A stretch of DNA of 38,668 nt, taken from the NCBI GenBank assembly GCA_016932475.1, contig JAFGCU010000036.1, positions 1 to 38,668 of the forward strand, given 5' to 3'. This stretch comes from Anaerolineales bacterium. GTDB lineage: Bacteria; Chloroflexota; Anaerolineae; Anaerolineales; RBG-16-64-43. Positions 1,854-33,979 of this stretch are shown piece by piece; position 1 is the first letter of the stretch; every line of letters begins with the position of its first letter. The translations under genes and the position numbers were made by a program. The notes beneath the pieces are model-generated. The model was not told the origin of the DNA, did not search any database, and saw nothing but the letters and a program-made list of their open reading frames with translations.

Positions 1854-3818
1854 ATGGAAGAAATGTTGATTTCCCAGGTCGCAATTTCCGACCCCTTTTG
1901 GAGCCCGCGCCTGGAAACCAATGCCAAGGTTTCCATCCTTCATCAATGGCGGGAACTGGAAGCCAGCCGCTGCATCGATAATTTTCGGATTGCCGCGGGG
2001 CTGAAAAAGGGGTTCCGGAAAGGATGGTTTTTCGCCGATTCGGACGCCTATAAATGGCTGGATGCGGCCGCCCGCATCTATGGCGACTGGCCTTCGAACG
2101 ACCTGAAAGCAAGTATGGATGCGCTCATCTCCCTTCTGGCGCGCGCACAGATGGAAGACGGCTACCTGTACACCTACAACCAAATCCATTTTCCCGGCGA
2201 ACGCTGGGGGAACCTGATGATCGAGCACGAGCTCTATTGCCTCGGCCATCTCATCGAAGCGGCCGTCTCCCACTTTCAAGCCACCGGCGATCCGTCTGCC
2301 CTGAATCTCGCGCGGAAAGCCGCCGACCTGCTGGTGCGGGATTTCCTGACGGCCACAGCGGAAAAAACCTCCGGTCACGAGGAGATCGAAATCGCCCTGC
2401 TGCGCCTTTATCTTGTCACCCGGCACACGCCTTACCGGGATCTGGCAAAACAATTCCTGGAGCGCCGCGGAAGGGTCCGCCCGTTTGCGCCGCTGATTCT
2501 CCGGCAGAATTCCCGGGTTGAAAAACGCAGAAAAATTGTACGGGAACAACGCCGGGCTTTTCTGGCCGGGAATCCGGATCAGCAATCCTTCCAACTACCG
2601 CCCGAAAATTATGCGAAGCGGCCATTTTCCGCCAAGTGGCGCTGGTTCCTCAGTGTGCTGAACGGAAAATATTTTCAGCAGCACGCTCCCATCCGTTCCC
2701 AGAACGTCCCGGTCGGGCATGCGGTCCGGTTTGGATATTTGGAGACGGCGATCGCCATGCTCCACCGGATCGAACCCGATCCGACTCTTCTGCCGGCGAT
2801 GGAACAAGCCTGGGAGCACATGGTGCTTCACCGGATGTACGTCACCGGCGGGATCGGCTCACTGCCGGAGTCGGAAGGTTTCGGCCGGGACGGGGAGCTC
2901 GACCCCGAGGTCGCCTACGCCGAAACGTGCGCCGCCCTGGCCGGCCTTTTTTGGAACTGGGAGATGGCGCTGATCCACGCGGAAGCCAAATTCAGCGACC
3001 TGTTCGAGTGGCAGTTGTACAACGCCGCGGCGGTCGGAATCGGCCTGGGCGGAGACAGCTACCTGTACAACAATCCGCTGCTTTGCCGGAAGGGGATCAC
3101 CCGGCGCCCCTGGTTCCAGGTTCCTTGTTGCCCGTCAAATCTTTCCCGCACCTGGGCGGCTCTGGGAAAATATATCTATTCATATGACCAGGATGACCTG
3201 TGGATTCATCAGTACATCGGCAACGAATTGAGAATGGCGGACGGAAAATGGAAAACGGTCAGCTTGGAATCCAGCCTGCCGTGGGAGGGGAAGATCAGGA
3301 TTGCGTTCCAGCCGGATCGGCCGGTGAATTTCACGCTGCATGTGCGGATTCCGTCCTGGGCGGGAAATACCTCCCTGAAGGTCAATGGATCTTCCGTGGA
3401 TGTTCCTGTTAACAAGAATATTCCCTTGCCGCCTCCCGCTTCCGGGTATGATCCCCGCCTCTCGAGTTACATCGCCCTTCCGCGCTGCTGGTCCCCGGAT
3501 GACACCGTGGATCTGGAATTCGAAATTCCGATTGTCCGGCGAAAAGCCGCCCCGCATCTGCGCGGCTGTAAAAACAAAGTCGCACTCTCGCGCGGGCCAT
3601 TGGTATACTGCCTGGAAAGCACGGATAACCCCGGTATGGATATCTTTACGGCAAGGATAAACCCGGAAACGATCCACGTGGAGCGGGACCAAAACCTCCT
3701 GGGCGGCGTTCAAGTCCTCCGCGGAAAAACGAGGGACGGAATGGATTTCACCGCCATCCCCTACCCATTATGGGCCAATCGGAATGAATCACAGATGACG
3801 GTGTGGGTAAATACATAG
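1854..3818 (+). CDS. GH127-family beta-L-arabinofuranosidase (DUF1680)
   Basis: The 654-residue protein has the length and key motifs of GH127 enzymes such as HypBA1 (about 658 residues), which release L-arabinofuranose through a zinc-bound cysteine nucleophile. AETCAALAG carries Glu357 and Cys359, and PCCPSN carries Cys425-Cys426, corresponding to the Glu/Cys and Cys-Cys zinc site of the family. QNVPVGHAVR is the conserved His-containing segment. There is no signal peptide, so action is probably on imported oligosaccharides in the cytoplasm. A basic insert (residues about 200-240) is less typical. The ATG at 1854 follows GAAAGGG with long spacing; ATG 1863 is an alternative. The gene stands alone, diverging from hypA copy 2. 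Confidence 0.85.
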   Translation: MEEMLISQVAISDPFWSPRLETNAKVSILHQWRELEASRCIDNFRIAAGLKKGFRKGWFFADSDAYKWLDAAARIYGDWPSNDLKASMDALISLLARAQMEDGYLYTYNQIHFPGERWGNLMIEHELYCLGHLIEAAVSHFQATGDPSALNLARKAADLLVRDFLTATAEKTSGHEEIEIALLRLYLVTRHTPYRDLAKQFLERRGRVRPFAPLILRQNSRVEKRRKIVREQRRAFLAGNPDQQSFQLPPENYAKRPFSAKWRWFLSVLNGKYFQQHAPIRSQNVPVGHAVRFGYLETAIAMLHRIEPDPTLLPAMEQAWEHMVLHRMYVTGGIGSLPESEGFGRDGELDPEVAYAETCAALAGLFWNWEMALIHAEAKFSDLFEWQLYNAAAVGIGLGGDSYLYNNPLLCRKGITRRPWFQVPCCPSNLSRTWAALGKYIYSYDQDDLWIHQYIGNELRMADGKWKTVSLESSLPWEGKIRIAFQPDRPVNFTLHVRIPSWAGNTSLKVNGSSVDVPVNKNIPLPPPASGYDPRLSSYIALPRCWSPDDTVDLEFEIPIVRRKAAPHLRGCKNKVALSRGPLVYCLESTDNPGMDIFTARINPETIHVERDQNLLGGVQVLRGKTRDGMDFTAIPYPLWANRNESQMTVWVNT

Positions 3819-9716: not shown

Positions 9717-9932
9717 GCCGGCCAAGTACACGCCGGCATGACGATCGCCCTCATCCCGGCCAAGTACACGCCGGCATGACGATCGCCCTCATCCCGGTCA
9801 AGTACACGCCGGCATGACGATCGCCCTCATCGCGGCCAAGGACACGCCGGCATGACGATTGCCCTCATCGCGGCCAAGTACATGCCGGCATGACGATCGC
9901 ACTCATCCCGGTCTGGTACACGCCGGCGAGTG
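9717..9932. repeat. 38-bp tandem repeat array, about 5.5 copies
   Basis: Units begin at 9721, 9759, 9797, 9835, 9873 and 9911, exactly 38 bases apart, each containing CAAGTACACGCCGGCATGAC followed by GATCGCCCTCATC with one or two changes. There are no unique spacers, so it is a minisatellite and not a CRISPR array. Its right end falls about 30 bases before the AGE start codon, close to that gene's expected promoter and leader. Confidence 0.9.
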
Positions 9933-9963: not shown

Positions 9964-11136
9964 ATGACCAATTTCTCCGAATACGCCGAACAGTACCGCC
10001 GCGCGCTGCTTGAGGATGTGATCCCGTTCTGGGAGAAGCATTCGATCGACCGCGAGTGCGGCGGCTACTTTACCTGCCTGAACCGCGACGGAAGCGTGTT
10101 TGACACCGATAAATTTATTTGGCTGCAGGCGCGGCAGGTATGGACCTTTTCCATGCTGTACAACCGCTGCGAAGCGCGCCAGGAATGGCTGGAGGTCGCC
10201 CGCCACGGCGCGGAGTTCCTGATAAAGCACGGCCGTGCGCCCGACAGCAACTGGTATTTCTCGCTGGCCCGCGACGGCCGGCCGCTTGTCCAACCCTACA
10301 ACATCTTCTCGGATTGCTTCGCGGCAATGGCGTTGGCGCAGTACAGCTTGGCATCCGGGGATGAACAGGCCGCCGGCCTGGCGCGCAGCACGTACCGGAA
10401 TATTCTGCGCCGGCGGGAGAATCCCAAGGGTATCTACAACAAACTCGTCCCCGGCACCCGCCCGCTGAAGAACTTCGCGTTGCCGATGATCCTGTGCAAC
10501 CTCGCGTTCGAACTCGAGCGGCTGCTGCCGCCCGAAGAGACCGAAGCGGCGATCGACGAATGCATGAAAGCCGTGCCGGGGGAATTCCTCGATCCGGAGA
10601 AGAATATCATCCTCGAAAACGTGGCGCCGGATGGGAGCCAGGTGGATTCGTTCGAAGGCCGCTTGCTCAACCCGGGCCACGCGATCGAGGCGATGTGGTT
10701 CCTGATGGATATCGGAATCCGGCGCGGCGACCGCGCCCTGATCGAGAAGGCGGTCGGCGTCGTCCTGGCCACGCTCGACCACGCCTGGGACCGGGAATAC
10801 GGCGGCCTGTACTACTTCCTCGACCGCCACGGGCATCCGCCGCAGCAGCTGGAATGGGATCAAAAACTGTGGTGGGTCCACATCGAAACGCTGATCGCGC
10901 TCGCGCTCGGCTTCGCCCAAAGCGGCCGGGCGGAATGCCGGGAGTGGTACGAGCGCGTACACGAATACGCCTGGGAGCGTTTTCCGGACCCGCGCTACGG
11001 CGAGTGGTTCGGCTACCTCACCCGCCGCGGCGAAGTCCTCCTGCCGCTCAAGGGCGGGAAGTGGAAAGGCTGCTTCCACGTCCCGCGCGGGCTGTTCCGG
11101 TGCTGGAAGGTATTCGAGGGGATGAAGGAGAAGTGA
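9964..11136 (+). CDS. N-acylglucosamine 2-epimerase family (AGE) enzyme
   Basis: The 390-residue protein matches the AGE/renin-binding-protein family in length and motifs. It has WLQARQVW (Arg57), [10 protein letters not shown] (His239), WVHIETL (Glu308) and GCFHVPRG (His372), the four positions reported as essential in the Anabaena enzyme, here at the same residue numbers. The family interconverts N-acyl-glucosamine and N-acyl-mannosamine, while relatives epimerise mannose/glucose or cellobiose, so the substrate is open. It is cytosolic with an alpha/alpha barrel. GGAGG at 9947-9951 lies 12 bases from the ATG, rather far. No sialic-acid genes are nearby, which favours a neutral-sugar or oligosaccharide role (inference). 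Confidence 0.85.
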
Positions 11137-11147
11137 AACAAGGTCTC

Positions 11148-11222
11148 ACCGCAGAGGCGCAGAGAGCGCAGAGAAAAAATTAAATCAAAGAAAAACCTCT
11201 GCGTCCTCTGCGGCTCTGCGGT
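11148..11222. repeat. Inverted repeat of CGCAGAG type forming a long hairpin
   Basis: A 26-base arm (11148-11173, starting ACCGCAGAGGCGCAGAG) is matched in inverse by 11197-11222 with about three mismatches and a 23-base A/T-rich loop. The right arm ends 6 bases before the ATG of the AAC(3)-like gene. A half-copy of the same wording occurs at 36069-36095. Confidence 0.8.
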
Positions 11223-11228
11223 AAAAAA

Positions 11229-12071
11229 ATGTTTGAATTTCAAGATCGCTTCCGCAAAGACCTCCTCGCCCTGGGTGTGCGCCCCGGCGGATTGCTGCTC
11301 GTCCACAGTTCATTCCGTTCGTTTACGGATTCGCTTCCGGCTGGCATCCCCCTCTCCCGGTACTTGTCCCGAGCGGCATCGAGGGATCAGCCGGGAGAGG
11401 GGGAACGAGGGGGTGGGGCCGGCGGGCCGGAAACCGTGATCCAGGGTTTGCTCGAAACGCTCGGCCCGGACGGCACGCTGCTCATGCCGGCCCTGACCTG
11501 GGAGCGGGTAACCCCCGAGAATCCGATTTTCGACATCCGTCACACGCCATCCAATGTGGGGATCATCCCCGAAACATTCCGCACCAGGCCGGGAACGCTG
11601 CGCAGCCTGCATCCGACCCATTCCGTGTGCGCCGCCGGGCCGCTGGCCGCGGAACTGATCGAAGCGCACGCGGCCGACAGCACCCCCTGCGGCCCGCATT
11701 CCCCCTTCCGCGCTAACGCCGAACGCGGCGGGCAGATTCTGTTCCTTGGCTGCGGCCTCGAGGCGAATACGACCATGCACGCGGTCGAAGAGATCATCGT
11801 ACCGGCTTACCTGTTCGACCCGCCGATCGAGTACCGGCTGACCCTCGCCGACGGATCGGAGCGGAGAAAATCGTATGCGCCGCGCAATTTCCGCGGCTGG
11901 CGCCAGCGTTACGACCGCGCGGCGGAAATCCTGCGGCCTCCGGATCTGATCCGCGCAACCGTCGCGGGCGCCGTGTCGGTCCTGCTCGACGCCGCGGCGC
12001 TGTGGGATGCGGCGCTCGCGGTGCTAAGGAAGGATCCGCTGTTTTTCGTGGAGAGGGTGTCCGATTCTTAG
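11229..12071 (+). CDS. AAC(3)-family acetyltransferase with in-frame repeat insert
   Basis: The 280-residue protein shows the aminoglycoside N3-acetyltransferase fold signature: LLVHSSFRSF near the N-terminus, then ETVIQGLLETLGPDGTLLMP, LHPTHSVCAAG and TMHAVEE, including the conserved histidines. The family uses acetyl-CoA; many chromosomal members are not drug-resistance genes and act on other amino-sugars. Residues about 39-65 (PLSRYLSRAASRDQPGEGER and on) have no counterpart in the family and come from a palindromic DNA element at 11348-11403 that keeps the frame. No clear ribosome-binding site precedes the ATG, which directly follows a long hairpin repeat, so expression may be low. Confidence 0.75.
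   Translation: MFEFQDRFRKDLLALGVRPGGLLLVHSSFRSFTDSLPAGIPLSRYLSRAASRDQPGEGERGGGAGGPETVIQGLLETLGPDGTLLMPALTWERVTPENPIFDIRHTPSNVGIIPETFRTRPGTLRSLHPTHSVCAAGPLAAELIEAHAADSTPCGPHSPFRANAERGGQILFLGCGLEANTTMHAVEEIIVPAYLFDPPIEYRLTLADGSERRKSYAPRNFRGWRQRYDRAAEILRPPDLIRATVAGAVSVLLDAAALWDAALAVLRKDPLFFVERVSDS
11348..11403. repeat. Palindromic element inserted within the AAC(3)-like coding region
   Basis: CCCCCTCTCCCGG (11348-11360) and its perfect inverse (11391-11403) flank a 30-base loop. The wording resembles intergenic CTCTCCC/GGGAGAG hairpins at 19867-19900 and 23082-23180. It encodes a charged Gly/Arg-rich loop and does not break the reading frame. Confidence 0.7.
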
Positions 12072-14217: not shown

Positions 14218-16653
14218 ATGAAAATCAAGATCAGACTGCCTTTGATCCTCCTGCTGCTTATCCTCCTCGCCGGCTGCGGCACGCTGAAGATCAACGTTGA
14301 TTTTCGAAATACTCCGGTTTCCGGCGTTGCGGAAATCCCTTCCGGTTTGCCGGAATCGTCGGTTGCGGCTCTCGTATCCACCCCGACCGCCTCTCCCACA
14401 GCCGGCGAATCCGCAGCCACTCCGGAACGGGCCGCTCCAACACCGGAAACGGTACATCCCGTCGCCCTGGCCGCCGGCCGGAATTTCACTTGCGCGGTGA
14501 TGAGCAACGGGGGGGTGAGATGCTGGGGCGACAACGAGCACGGGCAGTTGGGGAACGGCCTCCGGGTGAACACCAACCACCCGGTCAATGTCATCGGTTT
14601 GACGGACGTAAAGGCGGTTACGACCGGTTGGGCGCACGTTTGCGCGCTGACCGCCGGCGGCGGTGTGAAATGCTGGGGATACAACGCCAACGGTGAGTTG
14701 GGCAATGGAAAAAATGTGGACAGCAATAAGCCGGTGGATGTCCAGGGACTTGCTTCGGGTGTGGTGGCGATTGATTCGGGTGACGATCATACCTGTGCGG
14801 TTATGAGCAGCGGAGGGCTGAAGTGCTGGGGGATCAATACCTACGGCCAGCTGGGTGATTGGACAAAGGATGCTCGCAGCGTTCCGGTCGACTCACCGTG
14901 GTTCGGGGGCGGCGTGGCGGACGTGCAAGCCGGTTGGGGGCACACCTGCGTCCGCACGACCGCGGGCTGGGCGAAGTGCTGGGGCAACAACCAGTATGGG
15001 CAGTTGGGATTCGGCAAACTGACGGATATCCACCTTCCGGCCGAGGATGTGGTCGACCTCAGCGCCAAGATTCTCGACGTTACGGCGGACGGCAGCCAAA
15101 CCTGCGCGCTCATCGCCGGGGGCGGTGCGTACTGCTGGGGTAACAACCGCTACGGGCAATTGGGGGATGGCACAACCCAAAAGCAATATGCCCCGGTTGC
15201 GGTGGCGGGATTATCGACCGGCGTCATCCGCCTCGAAGCCGGCTGGAATCACACTTGCGCGGTGGTCAGCGGCGGCGAGCTGCGGTGCTGGGGTTGGAAT
15301 TATTTCGGTCAGCTCGGAGAAGGGACAACCCTTAACCGCAGCACGCCTGCGCGCGTGCAGTACCTGACCGATGGAGCAATGGATGTAGCTTTGGGCTGGG
15401 GGCACACCTGTGTGTTGACCGGGCTCGATGCGGTGAAGTGCTGGGGCTCAAACTCATCGGGCCAGCTCGGCGACGGCACCTGGACCGACAGCAAGATCCC
15501 GTTGACCGTAGTGGATCTGATTTTCGAGGCTCCCCTGACGAAAACGCCCAAGCCGACGCAGACGGCAACCCGCGCCCCGACGGTAGTTGCGTCGCGTGTC
15601 TTTGTCTCCCTCTCGGCCGGCCTGAATCATACATGCGGAGTGACGTCTTCCGGAGGTGTGATGTGCTGGGGAGACAACTCGTTCGGGGAATTGGGCGATG
15701 GTACGAAGACCAATCGGACCGTGCCGGTGGATGTTGTCGGTTTGCCGGACGTCGCTATCGCGGTGGCGGCCGGCGGAGAACATACCTGCGCCTTAACCGC
15801 GTCGGGCGAAGTTTCGTGCTGGGGAAAAAACGAATTCGGCCAGTTGGGGGAAGGGACGACGTCGGATAGTCGGATTCCGGTGATGGTGAAAGGACTGCCG
15901 GCAGGGATGCGGGGCGTCGATGCGGGGTATAACCATACCTGCGCGTTGACTTCAACCGAACAGGTGATGTGCTGGGGCGGCAACCTGGCCGCTCAATTGG
16001 GCGATGGAACAAGGACCAATAGCAGCGTACCCAAGCAGGCGACCGGATTGAATGGAGTGGAGGTATCCTTCATTGCTACGGGTGATTTGTACACTTGTGT
16101 GTTAACGAAAGCCGGCGGCGTTAAGTGTTGGGGGGAAAGCAGCGCCGGCCAGCTGGGAAGCCGGCCTTTCAACAAAGACGGCTATCCTCCGGAGGATGTT
16201 TTTGGGTTGTCCGGTGGAGTTGCGGCGATATCCACCGGTGCATCCCGTACATGTGCAATTATCCGGGATGCAGGGGTCAAGTGTTGGGGATTTTATTTTT
16301 TAGGGGATGGCACCGGACGCAGCAGCCGGGAGCCTGTGGATGTCGCTAACCTTTCGGGCGGCGCGGTCGATATTGGTGTGGGTGCTGACCAGACCTGCGC
16401 GCTGATCTCCGGAGGCGGCGCGCAATGCTGGGGATTTAATCCCGGCGGGGGGGTAGATCTTTTCCCGGTAAGCGTTGTTGGTGTGCACGGACCATGGAAG
16501 GCGATTGCCGCCGGTTCTCATCACACCTGCGTTCTCTCCGTCGATGGCAGGGCAAAGTGCTGGGGAAGGAATTGGTACGGTCAACTTGGAGATGGCACAA
16601 CAATAAACCGCGACACCCCGGTTGATCTCGCGACAGCGCCGCCGTGGAAATAG
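14218..16653 (+). CDS. RCC1-repeat lipoprotein 1: two seven-bladed propellers (14 blades)
   Basis: The 811-residue product has a signal ending in LLAGC (Cys20), a mature start CGTLKINVDF, a Thr/Pro-rich spacer to about residue 80, then 14 RCC1 units of form HTCAL...GGVKCWGxNxxGQLGDGT. Blades 1-7 (to about nt 15520) and 8-14 (from about 15600) are separated by a linker rich in KTPKPTQTATRAPT, so I predict two complete propellers. All 14 units keep two cysteines about nine residues apart. Blades 12 and 13 are degenerate in the GQLGDGT part. RCC1 propellers bind proteins; BLIP-II is a secreted bacterial example. ATG 14218 is chosen because it opens the signal peptide; the reading frame itself is open from 14113, overlapping the LCP stop. 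Confidence 0.88.
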   Translation: MKIKIRLPLILLLLILLAGCGTLKINVDFRNTPVSGVAEIPSGLPESSVAALVSTPTASPTAGESAATPERAAPTPETVHPVALAAGRNFTCAVMSNGGVRCWGDNEHGQLGNGLRVNTNHPVNVIGLTDVKAVTTGWAHVCALTAGGGVKCWGYNANGELGNGKNVDSNKPVDVQGLASGVVAIDSGDDHTCAVMSSGGLKCWGINTYGQLGDWTKDARSVPVDSPWFGGGVADVQAGWGHTCVRTTAGWAKCWGNNQYGQLGFGKLTDIHLPAEDVVDLSAKILDVTADGSQTCALIAGGGAYCWGNNRYGQLGDGTTQKQYAPVAVAGLSTGVIRLEAGWNHTCAVVSGGELRCWGWNYFGQLGEGTTLNRSTPARVQYLTDGAMDVALGWGHTCVLTGLDAVKCWGSNSSGQLGDGTWTDSKIPLTVVDLIFEAPLTKTPKPTQTATRAPTVVASRVFVSLSAGLNHTCGVTSSGGVMCWGDNSFGELGDGTKTNRTVPVDVVGLPDVAIAVAAGGEHTCALTASGEVSCWGKNEFGQLGEGTTSDSRIPVMVKGLPAGMRGVDAGYNHTCALTSTEQVMCWGGNLAAQLGDGTRTNSSVPKQATGLNGVEVSFIATGDLYTCVLTKAGGVKCWGESSAGQLGSRPFNKDGYPPEDVFGLSGGVAAISTGASRTCAIIRDAGVKCWGFYFLGDGTGRSSREPVDVANLSGGAVDIGVGADQTCALISGGGAQCWGFNPGGGVDLFPVSVVGVHGPWKAIAAGSHHTCVLSVDGRAKCWGRNWYGQLGDGTTINRDTPVDLATAPPWK

Positions 16654-16693
16654 TAGAGAACGGATTTCACGAACTACATTAAGAAGGAATTCT

Positions 16694-18034
16694 ATGAGAC
16701 AGAATCCTTTATCTGCTCTGATTATCCTTGCCCTTCTCACCGGCTGCGGCACGCTGGATATCGACGTCGATTACGGATGGACGGCCGCCGCCAGTCCGCA
16801 TCCGACACGGGCCGCGGCTTCGCCCACGGCGGAAGCGGATACGCCCGCCCCGACCGCTTCCCCGACCGCGACGGCGGAGGAAGACACCCTTATGCCCACC
16901 CCGACTTCGACCGTCCCGCTGGTTCTGCATGCGGCCGCCCTCTCCTCCGGCGAGGAGCATACCTGCGCACTGACGGACCAGGGCGGCGTGAATTGCTGGG
17001 GTAACAACGAGCACGGCCAGCTCGGGGACGGTTCGATGGTCAACAGCAACATCCCGGTGGAGGTGAAGGGGCTGGAGAACGTCTCGATGGTGGCGGCAGG
17101 CTGGGCGCATACCTGCGCCCTGACCCGGTCCGGCGCGGTGCGGTGCTGGGGATACAACAAAAACGGCGAGCTGGGCAACGGGAAGACCGCTGATTCAAGC
17201 GTGCCGGTCGAGGTTGAGGGGCTGGCTTCCGGCGTCGTCAACATCGGCACCAAAGAGGATCACACCTGCGCGGTGATCGCGGACGGCGCGGTGCGATGCT
17301 GGGGCTACAACCAGTTCGGGCAGCTGGGCGATGGAACGCACATCAGCCGCAGCGTGCCGGTCGCGGTTCAGGGACTCTCCGGCCAGGCCGCGGCCGTGGT
17401 GGCGGGCTGGGGCCATACTTGCGTGCTCGTCTCTGCGGGCGGTATTCAATGCTGGGGAAACAACGAGTACGGCCAGCTGGGTTACGGTGAGGAGGCGTTT
17501 GAGCGGCTTACGCCGGTGATCATTCCGGAATTGCAGAGCGGCGTGATCGGCCTCAGCGCCGCCGGCGGCCAGACCTGCGCGCTCCGGACGGGCGGCGCGG
17601 TCCAATGTTGGGGGAACAACAAGTACGGCCAGCTGGGCGACGGAACGGCGGAAAAGCGCCTGAGCCCCGTCGCGGTGGAGGGCCTGGATCAGGGCATGGC
17701 GCGGGTGACCGCGGGCTGGAATCACACCTGCGCCGTGACGGGCAACGGCGAGGTGAAATGCTGGGGTTGGAATTATTACGGCCAGCTGGGCGACGAAACC
17801 AAAGCCACCCGGAGCCGGCCGGTGAGCGTCCGCCGGCTGATGGAGGACGCGGTCGAGGTCGCCCCCGGCTGGGCGCACACCTGCGCCGTCACGGCCGCCG
17901 GCGGGGTCAAGTGCTGGGGCCGGAACGACTCCGGCCAGCTCGGCGACGGCACCAACCTCGACAGCATCGTGCCGCTGAGCATTGTTGGATTGCGCCCGGC
18001 GGCGGCCGCCGCCGGGGCCTCATCCAGAATTTAA
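16694..18034 (+). CDS. RCC1-repeat lipoprotein 2: one seven-bladed propeller
   Basis: The 446-residue protein has the lipobox LLTGC (Cys18) and a mature start CGTLDIDVDY, almost the same as in lipoprotein 1. A Pro/Thr/Ala spacer follows (residues about 30-75), then exactly seven RCC1 blades, each with TCA...CWG. Blade 2 (GYNKNGELGNG), blade 4 (NNEYGQLGYG) and blade 6 (GWNYYGQLGD) match the same-numbered blades in lipoproteins 1 and 3, so the genes duplicated whole. AAGAAGGAA at 16681-16689 precedes the ATG, 40 bases after the previous stop, consistent with an operon. It ends with an Ala-rich tail, and a decayed blade follows downstream. Confidence 0.88.
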   Translation: MRQNPLSALIILALLTGCGTLDIDVDYGWTAAASPHPTRAAASPTAEADTPAPTASPTATAEEDTLMPTPTSTVPLVLHAAALSSGEEHTCALTDQGGVNCWGNNEHGQLGDGSMVNSNIPVEVKGLENVSMVAAGWAHTCALTRSGAVRCWGYNKNGELGNGKTADSSVPVEVEGLASGVVNIGTKEDHTCAVIADGAVRCWGYNQFGQLGDGTHISRSVPVAVQGLSGQAAAVVAGWGHTCVLVSAGGIQCWGNNEYGQLGYGEEAFERLTPVIIPELQSGVIGLSAAGGQTCALRTGGAVQCWGNNKYGQLGDGTAEKRLSPVAVEGLDQGMARVTAGWNHTCAVTGNGEVKCWGWNYYGQLGDETKATRSRPVSVRRLMEDAVEVAPGWAHTCAVTAAGGVKCWGRNDSGQLGDGTNLDSIVPLSIVGLRPAAAAAGASSRI

Positions 18035-18039
18035 CCCCG

Positions 18040-18190
18040 GCCGCTGGCTTGGGGATGAAATCACGCCCGCGAGTAGACCAAAGGCGGCAGGGTGATGCGC
18101 CGGGGCGGTAATGCCCACGGCCAGCCGGGCGATGGGACGGCGGGACCCCGGTTTGTTCCGGTGACGGTTGTCGGGATCCAATCCGGGAGG
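18040..18190 (+). pseudogene. Decayed single RCC1 blade after lipoprotein 2
   Basis: From 18062 the frame reads HARE, stop (TAG 18074-18076), TKGGRVMRRGGNAHG, then QPGDGT and PVTVVGIQSG. This aligns with a full RCC1 unit in which both key cysteines became Arg, W became R and the L of GQLG became P. All four changes are explained by single T-to-C transitions. The frame then runs on without blades, partly readable from ATG 18092. It is a fossil of a longer lipoprotein 2 or of a separate gene. Confidence 0.75.
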
Positions 18191-18245
18191 CGGGAGTGTG
18201 CCCGCTTTTCCCCCGCTTCCCATCCGGAAATTGGAGAACGAGATC

Positions 18246-19703
18246 ATGCGAAGACCAGCCTTGGCGGCGTTGCTTCTATCGGCGTTCCTGGCCGGTTGCG
18301 GCACGTTAAGCGTCGATGTGGAAATGGGGAGCACCCCCTCAAGTTCAGGATCCGCGGATCCTTCCGCCTCGGCAACCATCCCGGACGCCGGGGAAATCCT
18401 CCTTGCTGAAACGCCGGGCGCCGCTGTCACCCTCCCGGAATCCGGCCCGCCCGCAGCCACCGCGACCTTGCAGATACCGCGTGTTGTGGATATCGCGCTG
18501 GGGAAAGCCCACTCCTGCGCGGTTTTCGACACCGGCCGCGTGAAATGCTGGGGAATGAACACCCGCCGGCAGCTGGGAAACGAAAGCATGGTCAACAGCA
18601 ATCTGCCGGTGGAGGTGGAAGGGCTCGCGGACGTGAAGGCGCTCACGGCGGGTTGGGCGCATACCTGCGCGCTGACCAAATCCGGCGGTGTGAAATGCTG
18701 GGGGTATAACAAATACGGTGAATTGGGAAACGGGCAAAACGCCGACAGCGGGCCGCCCGTGGCTGTCCACGGATTATCCGCGGGCGTAATCGCGATCGAA
18801 GCCGGCGACGATCACACCTGTGCGGTGACCGCATCGGGCGCGGTGATGTGCTGGGGCTTCAACCAATACGGTCAGTTGGGCGACGGAACGACAACCAGCC
18901 GCAGCGTTCCCGTCCCGATCCAGGCTCCGATGGGCAATGGGGCGCTGGCGGTGGCGGCGGGGTGGGGGCACACCTGCATTCTGACCGCGGATAAAAGCGT
19001 CCGGTGCTGGGGCAACAACGAATACGGCCAGCTGGGATACGGCGCGGTGGAGGATTACCGGTTTACCCCGATGGATGTGGCGGGGCTGGCTATGAGCGCC
19101 GAGAGAATTTCCGCCGACGGCGGGCAGGCCTGCGCGCTGACGATCTACGGCGGGATCCGCTGCTGGGGCAACAATAAATACGGCCAGCTGGGCGATGGGA
19201 CAGGCGACACGCGCAGTACCCCGGTCGCGGTTCACGATCCCGCACAGGGAATGCGGAATGTGGCGGCGGGCTGGAACCACACCTGCGGGATTACGCGGGC
19301 AGGCGGGGCTCTGTGCTGGGGATGGAATTATTCGGGCCAATTGGGGGATGGCACGAAGGCCTCGCGCGCCGTGCCGGCCGAGGTGTACGGGCTGGGGGAG
19401 GGCGCGGAAGTGCTGAGCCTGGGATGGGCTCATACCTGTGCCGTGACGGACTTGGGCGGCGTGAAGTGCTGGGGCGCCAACGAATCCGGCCAACTCGGCG
19501 ACGGCACCGACCTCGACAGCCAGGTTCCGCTCGCGGTGGCGGGGCTGGGCGGGAAGCCCGATCCGCTCCCGGCGAAAACCGATTCGGCCGCCCCCACGGT
19601 GACCCGGACCTCCCCCGCGCCGTCTCCTACCGCGACCACTACACCGACCGCCGTCACGTACGGTTTTCCGCCAAGCGGCATGACGAAGCAGATAAGGACT
19701 TAA
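18246..19703 (+). CDS. RCC1-repeat lipoprotein 3: one seven-bladed propeller with Thr/Pro tail
   Basis: The 485-residue product has the lipobox FLAGC (Cys18), a mature start CGTLSVDVEM, a spacer to about residue 77, and seven RCC1 blades, all with both cysteines. Blade-specific wording again matches lipoproteins 1 and 2. After blade 7 comes a tail of about 50 residues, DSAAPTVTRTSPAPSPTATT and on, which is like the linker joining the two propellers of lipoprotein 1, as though a second propeller had been lost. GGAG at 18233-18236 is 9 bases before the ATG. The gene is convergent with the histidine kinase. Confidence 0.88.
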   Translation: MRRPALAALLLSAFLAGCGTLSVDVEMGSTPSSSGSADPSASATIPDAGEILLAETPGAAVTLPESGPPAATATLQIPRVVDIALGKAHSCAVFDTGRVKCWGMNTRRQLGNESMVNSNLPVEVEGLADVKALTAGWAHTCALTKSGGVKCWGYNKYGELGNGQNADSGPPVAVHGLSAGVIAIEAGDDHTCAVTASGAVMCWGFNQYGQLGDGTTTSRSVPVPIQAPMGNGALAVAAGWGHTCILTADKSVRCWGNNEYGQLGYGAVEDYRFTPMDVAGLAMSAERISADGGQACALTIYGGIRCWGNNKYGQLGDGTGDTRSTPVAVHDPAQGMRNVAAGWNHTCGITRAGGALCWGWNYSGQLGDGTKASRAVPAEVYGLGEGAEVLSLGWAHTCAVTDLGGVKCWGANESGQLGDGTDLDSQVPLAVAGLGGKPDPLPAKTDSAAPTVTRTSPAPSPTATTTPTAVTYGFPPSGMTKQIRT

Positions 19704-20075
19704 TCCCGCGAGCCGTGAAAAAAAAGAACCGTGAATGTCCCCTTAAGGCTGCTTTATTTTTTTTTTATTGCTGCTCAACCTTTGCTGTCCTAATCCCCAC
19801 ACCCCGCCTTCACCTCGAAGAACACCGAGGTTCAGGCACCCTCCCCTCGCTTTGCTCGAGGACAGGCTCTCCCACTTCCCCGTAAGGGGAAGGGGGAGAG
19901 GAGGTTAGGACTGTGTATCATCGGAAGCCTGAGCAATTACAAAAAAACCGCGCACCCTACAGGTGTGGCATTCCCACGCTCCTGCCGTTAATAGAATTTT
20001 TTCTCACGATCATTTCGAAGAAAGGGAAGAATTGGTTCTAAGTAATCCGGGAAAGATTTTCAACGGCAGGCGCTG
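19704..20075. other. Gene-free gap between lipoprotein 3 and the kinase, with T-tract and hairpin repeat
   Basis: The gap carries a long T-tract around 19758-19768 that could help end transcription of lipoprotein 3. At 19867-19900 an almost perfect 15-bp hairpin (CTCTCCCACTTCCCC with its inverse, GTAA loop) belongs to the CTCTCCC/GGGAGAG repeat type. No gene is supported here. Confidence 0.5.
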
Positions 20076-21023
20076 TTACCCCGCCGATTTCGATTTCTGC
20101 GGGATGTGGGCCGCGACCGGCAACGTGACGGCGAACACCGTCCCCCGTCCACCGTCGCGGCGGCTGCGGACAGTCACCGTCCCCTCGTGCCGATTCACCA
20201 CGCGCCTCACCAGCGCCAGGCCCAGCCCGGAGCCCTCGCAGCCGCGGGCGTTCGTTCCGCGGTAAAGCTCCTCGAACAGGCGCGGCAGTTCCTCCGGCGG
20301 GATCCCCGGACCGGTGTCCGCGATCTCTACCTGCACGTGGCGGGCCTGTTCGCTCGCCCGCACCTCGACCGTATCCACCCGCCCGGTGTACTTCATCGCA
20401 TTCTCGATCAGGTTGAAAAAAGCAAGGGAAAGCAGGTCGCGGTCGCCGGTGATCTCCGGCAGCGGCCACGGCACGCTTGGGACGATCAGACGCAGATCCC
20501 TTCCACTTACGGAAGGCAGCGCCCGGACGGCTTCCACGGTTTCCTTTAGGAGCTCGCCCAGATTGACTTTCGTGTATTCCAGCGGGATCTCTTCCAAATC
20601 CGCCAGCTTGCGCAATCCGGCGGTAAGGCGGGTCAGGCGTTCCACCTGATGCTGGATATCCGGAATAGCCGAAGGAGTCGCCCCGGCCCCGCCGGTGCCC
20701 TCCAGGTTGGCGAGTGCCGCCCGGATGCCCGTCAGCGGATTCTTTAATTCGTGGTCCAGCCGGCGCAGGAACCGCCGCTGGGCTTCCGCGTGCTTCAGTT
20801 TTTCACGGGCAATTCCATATTCGCGCTGTCGTTTATATGCGTACCGCGTCGGCACAACCAACAGCAGGAGTGTGCTGAGGAAAATCCCGGCAAAGAACGC
20901 CAGCAGGCCGAAATCGATCTTGATCGAAAGCAGGGGGAGCGGGCGCATCAGTTTCTGCAGAAGGATCATCGCCGCCAGGCCCAACGCCAGCGGCAGCAGC
21001 GCCAGCCCGATGCGCAGCCTCAT
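20076..21023 (-). CDS. Sensor histidine kinase, short-loop intramembrane type
   Basis: The 315-residue kinase has two membrane spans (about 2-22 and 38-57) with only about 15 residues outside, then a coiled linker, an H-box LDHELKNPLTGI (His91), N-box LIENAMKYTG, G1 DTGPGI and G2 GSGLGLALV. It autophosphorylates and passes the phosphate to the regulator encoded just upstream. The tiny external loop suggests sensing within the membrane or through a partner protein, as in BceS/LiaS-type kinases (inference). Its ATG overlaps the regulator's stop (ATGA), implying translational coupling. It lies between RCC1 genes 3 and 4. Confidence 0.92.
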   Translation of the reverse strand: MRLRIGLALLPLALGLAAMILLQKLMRPLPLLSIKIDFGLLAFFAGIFLSTLLLLVVPTRYAYKRQREYGIAREKLKHAEAQRRFLRRLDHELKNPLTGIRAALANLEGTGGAGATPSAIPDIQHQVERLTRLTAGLRKLADLEEIPLEYTKVNLGELLKETVEAVRALPSVSGRDLRLIVPSVPWPLPEITGDRDLLSLAFFNLIENAMKYTGRVDTVEVRASEQARHVQVEIADTGPGIPPEELPRLFEELYRGTNARGCEGSGLGLALVRRVVNRHEGTVTVRSRRDGGRGTVFAVTLPVAAHIPQKSKSAG

Positions 21024-21739
21024 TGCTCGCCCTCGACCGGCGCGCGGAACCGGTATCCCTCGCCGGTGACGGTTTCGATGAATTGCGGCTGCTCGGCTTC
21101 ATCCTTCAGCGCCCGGCGCAGTTCGGCGATGCGCGTATCGACCGCGCGCGTACCGGCCGGGTAATCCCATCCCCAGACCGCATCCAGAAGGCGTTCGCGC
21201 GTGATCAGTTCATCCGGGTGGGTCATCATATACTCCAGAAGCGAGAGTGCCTTGGGCGTCAGCGTCAGCACGTTCCCCGCCAGCGCCGCCCGCCGTGCGC
21301 GGCGGTCCAGCACCAGCCCGGCGGAGGTGATTTTCCAGGCCGAGGAAAGCGCCACGGGCGAACCCTGCGCCCGCCGCAAGACCGCCCGGACGCGGGCCAG
21401 GAGTTCGCGCGGGTCAAACGGCTTGTTCAGGTAATCGTCCGCGCCTTCCTCAAGCGCCATCGCGCGCTCGCCGGCTTCTCCCACCTGGGTCAGCAGGATG
21501 ACCGGCGTGTGATTTCCCTGTGACCGCAGCGTGCGCAGCACGGCCCGCCCGTCCATTTCCGGCATGAGCACGTCCAGGATGACCAGCTCCGGCTGGGTTT
21601 TGCCGACCGCCTCGAGCGCCTCCTGGCCGTTGGAGGCGCATTGAACCGTGTAGCCGGCGCGTTCCAGAAAGGCGCTCAGGTGCTCCGTGATGGACGGTTC
21701 ATCATCGACCAGGAGAATCTTGGGGTTTGTGGGGGGCAT
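21020..21739 (-). CDS. OmpR-family response regulator
   Basis: The 239-residue protein has a receiver domain with acidic pair Asp12-Asp13, phosphoacceptor Asp56 (VILDVLMP), Thr84 and Lys106 (NKPF), followed by a C-terminal winged helix with TPKALSLLEYMM, AVDTRIAELRRAL and TVTGEGYRF. ATG at 21737-21739 is chosen since the receiver begins right after it; the frame extends upstream to 21967 but without domain content. AAAGGAC lies about 12 bases upstream. It diverges from RCC1 lipoprotein 4 across 226 bases, so that gene is the first candidate target (inference). Confidence 0.92.
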   Translation of the reverse strand: MPPTNPKILLVDDEPSITEHLSAFLERAGYTVQCASNGQEALEAVGKTQPELVILDVLMPEMDGRAVLRTLRSQGNHTPVILLTQVGEAGERAMALEEGADDYLNKPFDPRELLARVRAVLRRAQGSPVALSSAWKITSAGLVLDRRARRAALAGNVLTLTPKALSLLEYMMTHPDELITRERLLDAVWGWDYPAGTRAVDTRIAELRRALKDEAEQPQFIETVTGEGYRFRAPVEGEQ

Positions 21740-21775
21740 GGACTTGCCGTCCTTTGTTCGGGATGGATGGGATAT

Positions 21776-21804
21776 ATCATACTGAAATCGCGGGATTCTG
21801 TCAT
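21776..21804 (-). promoter_or_regulatory. Promoter for the two-component operon
   Basis: On the minus strand ATGACA (21799-21804) and TATGAT (21776-21781) are separated by exactly 17 bases; each matches consensus at five of six positions. Transcription would start near 21769, about 30 bases before the regulator's ATG. Confidence 0.55.
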
Positions 21805-21965
21805 TTGGATCCTCCGCGGCACCGCCCCGCACCCCAAGGGCGGCGAAGGGTCCCCCGCGCCCTAAGAGAATTTGCGGCGCTTGGATTACAATACGGTTTA
21901 CGGATGGATCGATAAGGTCTTCATCCGACGGAGAATCCCGCGCAGAAAAGCGATTTGGAGGATCC

Positions 21966-23069
21966 ATGCCTCACCCAAAACCGTTCACGTTTGTTGCGCC
22001 GCTTCTATTCCTGATCCTTTGCACTTCTTGCCAGACTGCGGCCGGCGCGAAAGCGTCCATCATTGCCGCGGGCGGCAACCAGACTTGCATTCTGGATTCC
22101 GGCGGTGTGAAATGCTGGGGAAAGAACGACGCCGGCCAGCTCGGGGATGGCACAACCGAGGACCGCAAAACCCCGGTGGCGGTCACCGCCGTTCCCGACA
22201 GGGTTACGGCGATTGCCATGGGGTATAACCACTCCTGTGCGGTTACGGAATCGGCGGAAGTAATCTGCTGGGGAGGGCAGCCGTCGGACCAGTCCAGAAT
22301 CAAATCGGATTCGGGCTTCACGGCGGTGAGTGTTGGTTCCATGCATTCCTGTGCCTTGACCGCCCAGGGCGGGTTGAAGTGCTGGGGCGCGAACAGCTTC
22401 GGCGGGCTGGGCGACGGAACCACGGAGGAGCATCTTTCGCCTGTCGATGTACTCGGCCTGTCCGGCGGTGTCACCTCGGTCGCGGCGGGCGGCAATTTCT
22501 CCTGTGCGGTGGAGAAAAGCGGCGTTAAATGCTGGGGATCCAATCATTCGGGCCAGCTCGGCAACGGCGGTTACGAAAGCAGCGCCACCCCCGTCGCCTT
22601 GCCCGGTTTGGAATCCGGAGTCGTGGCCATCGCCGCGGGCGTTTTCCATGCCTGCGCGTTGAAAACCAACGGGGAAGTGTGGTGCTGGGGCGAGAATTTT
22701 GCCGGGGAGTTGGGTGATGGCACCAATAAAAACAATCCGATCCCCGTCAGGGTTCTCAACCTGGAGGATGAAATCCAATCCATCGCCGTCGGCGGCAGCC
22801 ATAGCTGCGCGTTGACCAAAGCGGGCGGGGTAAAATGCTGGGGCGGCAATTCCGGCGGGCAGTTGGGCGACGGGACAACGACTGACCGGAATTCGCCCGC
22901 GCAAGTGTCGGGCCTTGCCAGCGGCGTCTCGGCGATTGCCGCCGGAGGCGGACATACGTGCGCGGTCCTCGGCGATGGAACGGTTAAATGCTGGGGATCG
23001 AACGGGAACGGCCAACTCGGAAATGGATCCAATACGGACAGCAGCGTCCCGGTCGATGTGCGCATGTAA
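21966..23069 (+). CDS. RCC1-repeat lipoprotein 4: one seven-bladed propeller
   Basis: The 367-residue protein has a signal ending in LCTSC (Cys22) and, unlike the other four, almost no spacer: the propeller starts about 10 residues after the lipid-bearing Cys, so it would sit close to the membrane. There are seven blades, all with two cysteines; blade 2 (EVICWGGQPSDQSRI) has lost GQLGDGT. GGAGG at 21957-21961 gives an ideal ribosome site. The gene diverges from the response regulator and ends before a strong bidirectional terminator. Close membrane placement beside a kinase with almost no sensor loop makes it a candidate accessory sensor (inference). Confidence 0.87.
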   Translation: MPHPKPFTFVAPLLFLILCTSCQTAAGAKASIIAAGGNQTCILDSGGVKCWGKNDAGQLGDGTTEDRKTPVAVTAVPDRVTAIAMGYNHSCAVTESAEVICWGGQPSDQSRIKSDSGFTAVSVGSMHSCALTAQGGLKCWGANSFGGLGDGTTEEHLSPVDVLGLSGGVTSVAAGGNFSCAVEKSGVKCWGSNHSGQLGNGGYESSATPVALPGLESGVVAIAAGVFHACALKTNGEVWCWGENFAGELGDGTNKNNPIPVRVLNLEDEIQSIAVGGSHSCALTKAGGVKCWGGNSGGQLGDGTTTDRNSPAQVSGLASGVSAIAAGGGHTCAVLGDGTVKCWGSNGNGQLGNGSNTDSSVPVDVRM

Positions 23070-23081
23070 TTTTTCTTCCCT

Positions 23082-23180
23082 ATCCATCCCCCGGCCCCTA
23101 TCCTTTTCCGGAGATTCGGGAGAGGGGGGCTGAAACCTGGAGGTCGTCCGGGTTGAAGACGGGGTGAGGGGATTGGGACA
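23082..23180. repeat. GC-rich CCCC/GGGAGAGG intergenic repeat
   Basis: The stretch after lipoprotein 4 contains CCCCTATCC and, in inverse with one mismatch, GGAGAGGGG, followed by GACGGGGTGAGGGG. It resembles the CTCTCCC/GGGAGAG elements at 11348 and 19867. Confidence 0.35.
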
Positions 23181-23203
23181 CGGTTGCCAGTCGGGCTGTT
23201 AAA

Positions 23204-23250
23204 AAAAATAAGACCGGAAGCGTTTTTCACAAGCTTCCGGTCTTATTTTT
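23204..23250. terminator. Bidirectional intrinsic terminator between lipoprotein 4 and mreB-like gene
   Basis: An 18-bp perfect stem (23204-23221 with 23233-23250; core AAGACCGGAAGC) encloses an 11-base loop, with an A-run on the left and a T-run on the right. It therefore works as a terminator on both strands and serves both convergent genes. Confidence 0.85.
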
Positions 23251-23269
23251 GTTCTTCGTGCAATGATTA

Positions 23270-24277
23270 TTACGCCGTTGGCAAATAGCGTTTGAACGCT
23301 TCCATTTGATGCAGGACAAGTTCGGCTCCCAGCGCCAGGCAACCGACCGGTTCCTCGGCCAGGTAGGCGGGAATGCCGGTGGCGTCGGTCAGGTAGCGGT
23401 CCACGCCGCGCAGAAGCGCGCCGCCGCCGCACAGCATGATTCCGCGGTCGATGATATCGGATGTCAGCTCGGGCGGCGTGCGTTCGAGTGTGGCCCGGAC
23501 GCAGCCGACGATTTCCTCCAGTGGTTCTTCCAGTGCTTCGACCACATCCGCGGTGGAGATGGTGATGGTGCGCGGGAGGTTGTTGACCTGGTCGCGTCCC
23601 TGGATTTCCAGGTTTTCGTTCGGGTCAACCGGGGCGGCGGCGCCGATCCGGAGTTTGATCTCTTCGGCGACCATTTCGCCGACCACCACGCCGTATTTGC
23701 GGCGGATGAATGCGGCCAGCAGTTCGTCCAGCCGGCGGCCGCCGACCCGGATCGTGTTGGCCACGACCGGGCCGTTCATCGTGATCACCGACGATTCCGT
23801 CACGCCGCCGCCCATGTACACCACCATGTTTCCGGACGGAGTGGAGATCGGCAGCCCGGCGCCGACCGCGGCGGCCAGCGTGCGCGTGACCAGGAAGACT
23901 TCCCGGCAGCCGGCGCGCAACACCGCTTCGCTTGCGGCGCGGCGTTCGACGCTGGTGATCCCGTGCGGAATGGTCACCATCGCCCGCGGTTTGAACGGGC
24001 TGACGGCGCCGCACACCTTGCGGATGAACCAGGTTAGGAGCACCTGCGCCACTTCGAAATCGGCGATCGCGCCGTATTGCAGCGGATGGACGACTTCGTA
24101 CCCTTCCGGAACCCGGCCGTACATGTGGCGGGCCTGCTCGCCCACTTCCACGACTTTCTGCTCGTCCACATCGATCACCACCATCGTCGGTTCGGAGAGG
24201 ACGATTTGCCCGCCCTCGGCGATGATGGTGTTGACCGTTCCCAGGTCGATTCCCAATTCCTTATAGAATAATGCCAT
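23270..24277 (-). CDS. mreB: MreB-like actin homologue with altered ATPase motifs
   Basis: The 335-residue protein aligns along its whole length with MreB: GIDLGTVNT (phosphate 1, Asp11), PHGITSVERRA, VGAGLP, IRVGGRRLDE, IKLRIGAA, PPELTSDIIDRGIMLCGGGALLRG. MreB normally forms membrane-bound filaments that guide wall synthesis. Two core motifs differ: phosphate 2, usually VVDIGGGTTE, reads VVYMGGGVTE (Tyr154 for Asp), and the usual EEP before AAAIGAGLP reads TRT (131-133), removing the Glu that positions the attacking water. ATP turnover is therefore probably impaired. No mreC or mreD is adjacent. No good ribosome site is seen. It diverges from RCC1 gene 5. Confidence 0.85.
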   Translation of the reverse strand: MALFYKELGIDLGTVNTIIAEGGQIVLSEPTMVVIDVDEQKVVEVGEQARHMYGRVPEGYEVVHPLQYGAIADFEVAQVLLTWFIRKVCGAVSPFKPRAMVTIPHGITSVERRAASEAVLRAGCREVFLVTRTLAAAVGAGLPISTPSGNMVVYMGGGVTESSVITMNGPVVANTIRVGGRRLDELLAAFIRRKYGVVVGEMVAEEIKLRIGAAAPVDPNENLEIQGRDQVNNLPRTITISTADVVEALEEPLEEIVGCVRATLERTPPELTSDIIDRGIMLCGGGALLRGVDRYLTDATGIPAYLAEEPVGCLALGAELVLHQMEAFKRYLPTA

Positions 24278-24478
24278 AAGGTGTCAGACCACTCTCCCGG
24301 AATAGAATTTGGCTGTTTTCACGAGAACGATGGATAATTGTACCCCAATAGACGGGGGCGGATGCGGTGGACGACCCGTTGGACCGCCCTTTCGCCGCCC
24401 CGGTATGAAAACCGCGCCGGTCCGGATTCGATTACAATCGGCCCATTCCGGCCGGTTTGGCCCGTATCGGGAGCGAAA

Positions 24479-33885: not shown

Positions 33886-33964
33886 CCGATCCCTCGCTGC
33901 GCTCGGGATGACTTATCATAAAAGTTTCGCTTGGAATGTCATGCCGAGCGAAGCGAGGCATCGG
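33886..33964. repeat. CCTCGCT-type inverted repeat pair
   Basis: CCGATCCCTCGCTGCGCTCG at 33886 (27-base arm to 33912) is matched in inverse at 33938-33964 with 24 of 27 positions agreeing. It ends 16 bases past the stop of the ATPase gene and may serve as its transcript end. Confidence 0.7.
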
Positions 33965-33979
33965 TTGGTTTGACTCGCT

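Follow-up and report, generated by a model that had tools for sequence, protein, structure and literature searches.

Palindromic repeats captured within bacterial genes

The systems closest to the one described here are the Rickettsia palindromic elements (RPEs) and the intragenic REPs. In the accessible text of one review, RPEs are multi-copy palindromic repeats of about 150 bp, some of which lie in frame within genes and add peptide segments to the encoded proteins; in R. conorii nearly half of them are found in genes (PMC10969869). The REPs of the GTAG and CGTC superfamilies are presented, in the accessible text of a further paper, as small stem-loops which are mostly intergenic, with some located within genes of several bacteria. 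Many of the intragenic inserts amount to 20-30 amino acids, some REPs lie inside other palindromes, and GTAG repeats have been reported in the phylum Chloroflexi (PMC3733652).

The locus considered here comes from an Anaerolineales bacterium and was found in a stretch of 38,668 nts (contig JAFGCU010000036.1), which is referred to as the window. An AAC(3)-family gene in this stretch very probably received, by insertion, a composite palindromic repeat that left its reading frame open. Compared with the examined homologues, all of which lack it, the gene carries a net insert of 84 nts, the modules of which are dispersed repeats of the genome and of its relatives. The capture of a palindromic repeat by this gene, as proposed in the initial annotation, is borne out by its absence from all 34 homologous copies, by the dispersal of its modules and by a second in-frame case in another gene. 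The parallel with RPEs drawn at the same time holds for the outcome: a dispersed palindromic repeat (18 core and 29 arm-type matches, none with the control patterns) lies in frame within genes of known families. Judged by the review's description, however, the element is set apart from RPEs by its size (about 78 nts versus about 150 bp), its sequence context and its host. Captures are also rare (2 of 46 sites), and no conserved peptide is found, the arm frames differing between the two captures. Because this last feature of RPEs is lacking, the element is not classed as one. Its likeness to intragenic REPs equally concerns in-frame capture as an outcome, the comparison being with the accessible text of PMC3733652, consensus figures aside.

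The kind of event is already known from these two systems; the novelty lies in the sequence family, in its host and in the build, where a core sits within the loop of a hairpin. No earlier report of in-frame capture in Chloroflexota was found in the literature searched, which took in passages and two sections of the key papers, and no paper in that search matched four 18-nt spellings of the core. The locus adds another case of a palindromic repeat turned into a protein segment, this time in an environmental lineage; its homologues form a clear set that lacks the insert, and the same genome provides a second example.

The AAC(3)-family gene and its hairpin

The gene, the components of its insert and the related repeat in the window are as follows.

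11229..12071, + strand: AAC(3)/Antibiotic_NAT-family acetyltransferase gene, 280 aa, open frame
11325..11420, + strand: extra peptide TDSLPAGIPLSRYLSRAASRDQPGEGERGGGA, codons 33-64, 32 residues, from the homologue alignment
11346..11423, + strand: most likely inserted unit, 78 nts, ends uncertain, placed from the frame and the homologues
11347..11360, + strand: left arm TCCCCCTCTCCCGG, 14 of 14 bases paired
11367..11386, + strand: loop core TCCCGAGCGGCATCGAGGGA, a pattern match and one of 18 in the genome
11391..11404, + strand: right arm CCGGGAGAGGGGGA, 14 of 14 bases paired, with 30 nts between the arms
11397..11417, + strand: end of the right arm and tail GAGGGGGAACGAGGGGGTGGG, 21 of 21 nts identical to a hairpin (L143) in G413, a genome from another family of the order
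33890..33908, − strand: second match to the core pattern in the window, from the pattern search

A profile search places the gene product in PF02522 (4.8e-50; best stretch, residues 64-266), in agreement with the AAC(3) family first assigned to it, and its best solved relatives are AAC(3)-IVa and FrbF. While it reaches the cut-off of this wider family, it does not reach the curated one for AAC(3) aminoglycoside resistance: its scores against the five NCBIfam resistance models matched are all far under the cut-offs, the top one being 106 bits versus a cut-off of 420. Since these scores are so low, and since the two genes 5' of it are a GlcNAc 2-epimerase gene and a DUF4434 gene, we refer to it as an AAC(3)-family acetyltransferase gene and not as a resistance gene.

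The hairpin, originally placed at 11348-11403 with arms of 13 bp, is real and in frame, but its arms are 14 bp long (11347-11360 and 11391-11404). Perfect arms of at least 14 bp with a spacer of 3-60 nts were counted at five positions in the window, whereas 100 order-3 Markov simulations of the whole window gave 0.04 on average and never more than 1. Taken by itself, the folding energy of the hairpin segment is only modestly unusual (-51.7 kcal/mol for the RNA of 11335-11425; z = -2.25, with 5 of 200 shuffles equally good). The 280-codon reading frame stays open through the insert, as had been noted from the start, and five of the six frames are open across a 78-nt stretch of it at 11343-11420.

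The junctions can be read in two ways. GGC triplets at 11343-11345 and 11421-11423 bracket the 78-nt unit and are in frame. Alternatively, the unit would comprise the 82 nts between the CCGGC repeats at 11337-11341 and 11419-11423, along with two extra nts nearby (upstream), which would mean that the frame was once broken and then restored by the two added bases. The former reading needs fewer steps, and the latter is the better fit to the fixed length of the linker in the homologues. A clean target duplication was not found at the ends of the insert: GGC/GGC suits the frame, CCGGC/CCGGC does so only with the two extra bases.

Homologues without the insert

The segment is missing from all 34 homologous copies examined, which are not all from separate genomes (L098 and L101 share one, and L012 could duplicate another copy). 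Alignment with these AAC(3) homologues defines the insert as 32 residues in place of a linker of 3-4, which follows the segment bearing the VHSSFRSF motif and precedes the GGPETVIQGLL segment. The linker has four residues (GxVx) in 29 of the 30 aligned homologues and three in one (L020). The net gain of the window protein is thus 28 aa (84 nts), or 29 with respect to L020, within the 25-30 residues estimated beforehand. A counterpart of this loop built from unrelated DNA was looked for in the 34 copies and not found.

To collect the homologues, 396 genomes of the class were searched; a match is present in 37 (the own genome included), and 41 non-self matches were listed. The alignment comprises the 29 homologues with fetched loci and L012, the 12 listed matches without loci being left out. 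A search at the level of the order (301 genomes, own included) gave five non-self matches in four other genomes; all were read and one had already been counted. In L012 (about 2977-3719 of this locus, from an assembly named Anaerolineaceae) the AAC(3) gene is frameshifted downstream, and the four-residue linker was read from the DNA. By eye, the AAC(3) gene of L012 is followed by one reading like the DUF4434 gene of the window. At E 1e-20 no AAC(3) homologue was found in the genus mate or in the three other genomes of the family, and therefore there is no very close empty site for comparison.

Dispersed modules of the insert

The loop core and the arms are both of dispersed types, as seen in the genome of the window (G000), in one of the same genus (G002) and in one of the same family (G001). 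The core pattern TCCCGAGC-N1-7-CGAGGGA has 18 matches in G000, window copy included, and its reversed version has none. At the level of the order, 26 of 151 genomes (G000 among them) carry this pattern: it has 18 matches in G000, 26 in G002 and 12 in G001, and is absent from the remaining two members of the family. Reversed, it has a single match in the 151 genomes. The hairpin pattern CCCTCTCCC-N3-33-GGGAGAGGG has 29 matches in G000, two of them overlapping, and again none when reversed. The hairpin of the AAC(3) gene falls outside these 29 arm-type matches because its loop measures 34 nts by this definition. Outside the genome, the best match to the insert is CTCTCCCAGC-GTCTG-TCCCGAGCGAAGCGAGGGA-TCA-GCTGGGAGAG in G002, which has the same core and the same kind of arm. 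A near-identical full copy of 11320-11440 was not found in the genome, where the segment has, beside itself, partial matches only (best E 0.0045). As matches are only partial here and in the relatives, the element is to be seen as a mosaic of repeat modules and not as a fresh master copy. The resemblance to intergenic elements of the window, to which the initial annotation had drawn attention, extends only to one more exact core match (33890-33908, − strand); the other relatives lie elsewhere in the genome.

These modules bear on a rival account of the origin, according to which the palindrome formed within the gene itself, through template switching or a local inverted duplication, and owes its likeness to the dispersed repeats to a shared GC-richness. 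The GC-rich arms are indeed of low complexity and the genome has no second full-length copy. Nevertheless, such an origin is very unlikely, because a local event would not supply the dispersed core, tail and arm modules: the loop core fits a pattern with 18 members and a control of 0, the tail is found in another family of the order at 21 of 21 nts, and a core set between arms in the same manner is seen in the congener. Insertion of a composite repeat therefore remains the preferred reading.

A second capture and the frequency of captures

The search of the genome for other genes with the element in frame led to a second case. On contig C119 of G000, a related palindrome lies in frame within a 772-aa ORF weakly matching YfhO (1.1e-6; at 27.8 bits it falls slightly short of the gathering score, 28.5). 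Of 199 genomes, G000 among them, 57 have matches to its protein. The YfhO-like membrane protein has 40 residues (SPSPKVIWERGSGGEGVGGEEGYRKKGLGNEGEGERGREG) where 19 of 19 aligned homologues have 1 to 9, a net gain of 31-39. The arm is translated as PGEGE in the AAC(3) protein and as WERGSG in the YfhO-like one. It is thus read in different frames in the two genes and encodes no fixed peptide.

In a coding screen, which can miss short or atypical genes, the AAC(3) and YfhO-like genes account for the two sites found inside genes among 46 assessable repeat sites of G000; the corresponding figures are 0 of 22 in G002 and 0 of 10 in G001. Sites within 150 nts of each other were merged, and those with at least 400 nts on both sides were assessable (46 of 51 in G000, 22 of 25 in G002 and 10 of 11 in G001). 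The loci screened in the two relatives were core or insert matches, one core near a contig end being left out in each. A site was taken to lie within a gene if stretches of 30 to 60 codons on each side, starting 60 nts away, appeared coding in one shared open frame, according to a codon model built from 60,501 codons of long ORFs in the fetched loci and a threshold set by the analyst. The window gene passed this screen, with one of its two pattern hits barely above the threshold. Several long ORFs overlapping repeats were set aside by eye, since in these the repeat either precedes the probable start or falls in an antisense frame.

Occasional survival in coding sequence might be due to the GC-rich arms, which are purine-only on one strand and would rarely carry a stop codon. 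This offers a testable view of capture survival, based on the scarcity of stop codons in any frame of such arms and without a selected coding frame.

Fate of the gene

Whether the gene survived the insertion is a question distinct from that of its origin. Of the positions conserved at the 90 % level in 23 homologues (L012, two partial copies and four members of another subfamily having been dropped beforehand), the window protein keeps 76 of 86. By the same count, the order relative L018 keeps 74 of 87 and the left-out homologues 74 to 86 of 86 to 93. The gene is among the more diverged, yet it is not evidently decayed. It might still be a decaying pseudogene, inactivated by the insert and with its frame kept by chance: the linker that was hit has a near-fixed length (four residues in 29 of 30 aligned homologues, three in one), and the 82-nt CCGGC reading implies that the frame was broken before two nearby bases restored it. 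However, the 280 codons contain neither a stop nor a frameshift and, with 76 of 86 conserved positions retained, we consider decay unlikely.

At the other extreme, the loop could be an adaptive new segment, functional in the enzyme, as its open frame and its insertion at a conserved position would allow. Against this, the insert is known from one genome only (assembled contigs), the peptide is of low complexity and Gly/Arg/Glu-rich toward its end, and an unrelated protein carries a similar insert in another frame, which points to chance tolerance; an adaptive role is highly improbable. As far as can be judged from sequence, the additional residues most likely form a flexible loop on the protein surface, which is tolerated or does only mild harm and has not been selected for. 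An AlphaFold2 model of the window protein as a single sequence was worthless (mean pLDDT 31.8, pTM 0.19), and nothing on contacts between the linker and CoA was found in the accessible text of PMC7504452.

Relation to REPs and MITEs

The captured element could be a non-autonomous hairpin, spread by machinery that it does not itself encode. It is like bacterial MITEs in being a short non-autonomous inverted repeat, but lacks the long CTGTCCTAACCCCCTC..GAGGGGGTTAGGACAG ends of other palindromes in this genome, and neither its GGC nor its CCGGC end repeats are convincing as a target duplication. By eye, a larger MITE-like palindromic family with CTGTCCTAACCCCCTC..GAGGGGGTTAGGACAG ends is present in G000 (many of L042-L056 and L062-L069).

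Unlike CGTC REPs, as described in the accessible text on them, the captured core has no starting A-T pairs, whereas the core at 33890 has GTCAT..AT. Of the CGTC/TGTC/CCTC tags that adjoin the stem in CGTC REPs, TGTC can be read at the window core, which follows ACTTG, with an overlap into the stem; GCCTG precedes 27 of the 54 cores tallied. At 33886-33967, two core-type repeats face each other, and a related TGTCATGCCGAGCGAAGCGAGGCAT repeat at 33937 (+ strand) adjoins the 33890 core. One repeat within this segment, with TGTCAT..ATCGG ends, closely resembles CGTC REPs as they are described.

Mobilisation by a RAYT was considered and rejected, as the sole Y1_Tnp found, a borderline one on contig C90, is accompanied by no arm or core match on that contig. 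A transposase tied to the captured element was not found in the genome. The borderline Y1_Tnp gene (L061, G000:C90:2462-2812) is flanked on both sides, by eye, by palindromes of a different, GACCTGTCAGGTC type, with which it possibly forms a separate REP-transposase unit.

Nested arrays of the core

Nested forms of the core, such as (CCTGTCCCGAGCG)n-AA-(GCGAGGGAAA)n, are also present. Among 53 cores, extra units were counted on the left at 14, on the right at 14 and on both sides at 10. Nine of the ten both-sided nests are in G002 (L157, L158, L160, L165, L167, L173, L176, L177 and L178) and one is in G000 (L102). Shuffling within genomes gives 5.9 both-sided nests on average, and a count of 10 is reached in 11 of 5000 shuffles; for G002 alone, 68 of 5000 reach nine. 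A shuffle across genomes (mean 3.7, maximum 9 in 5000) mixes genomes and overstates the signal. The left-right symmetry of the nests is the trace expected if units entered a hairpin loop or grew out of it, and is suggestive, not strong. Arms of another kind flank the core less often: perfect ones of at least 9 bp enclose four cores out of 54, that of the window among them, versus a mean of 0.4 and a maximum of 2 for shuffled pairs. With such arms at just these four cores, the idea that the core generally enters other hairpins at their loops was judged weak and not retained.

The lodging of the core in the loop of another hairpin may reflect a tendency of such cores to enter, or to grow from, hairpin loops. 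It is conceivable, if doubtful, that the core is itself a hairpin that enters the loops of other hairpins, including those of its own copies, to give nested 'Russian-doll' palindromes. If so, a nest whose host hairpin is located in a gene would turn into a new peptide loop, and the symmetric (CCTGTCCCGAGCG)n..(GCGAGGGAAA)n arrays would be the trace of such loop insertions. The nested arrays are the more unusual lead and would point to loop-directed spread.

Other repeats in the window

Further repeats were seen around the AAC(3) gene. Directly upstream of it lies an inverted repeat of the CGCAGAG..CTCTGCG type (11131-11239), the extended right arm of which crosses the start codon at 11229. A 38-bp tandem repeat, CGGCCAAGTACACGCCGGCATGACGATCGCCCTCATCC, at 9719-9927 separates the epimerase gene from the DUF4434 gene. 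Long repeat stretches with a spacing of about 153 bp extend over 14464-26790 and encode TC..CWG.N..GQLG units, which are putatively RCC1-like.
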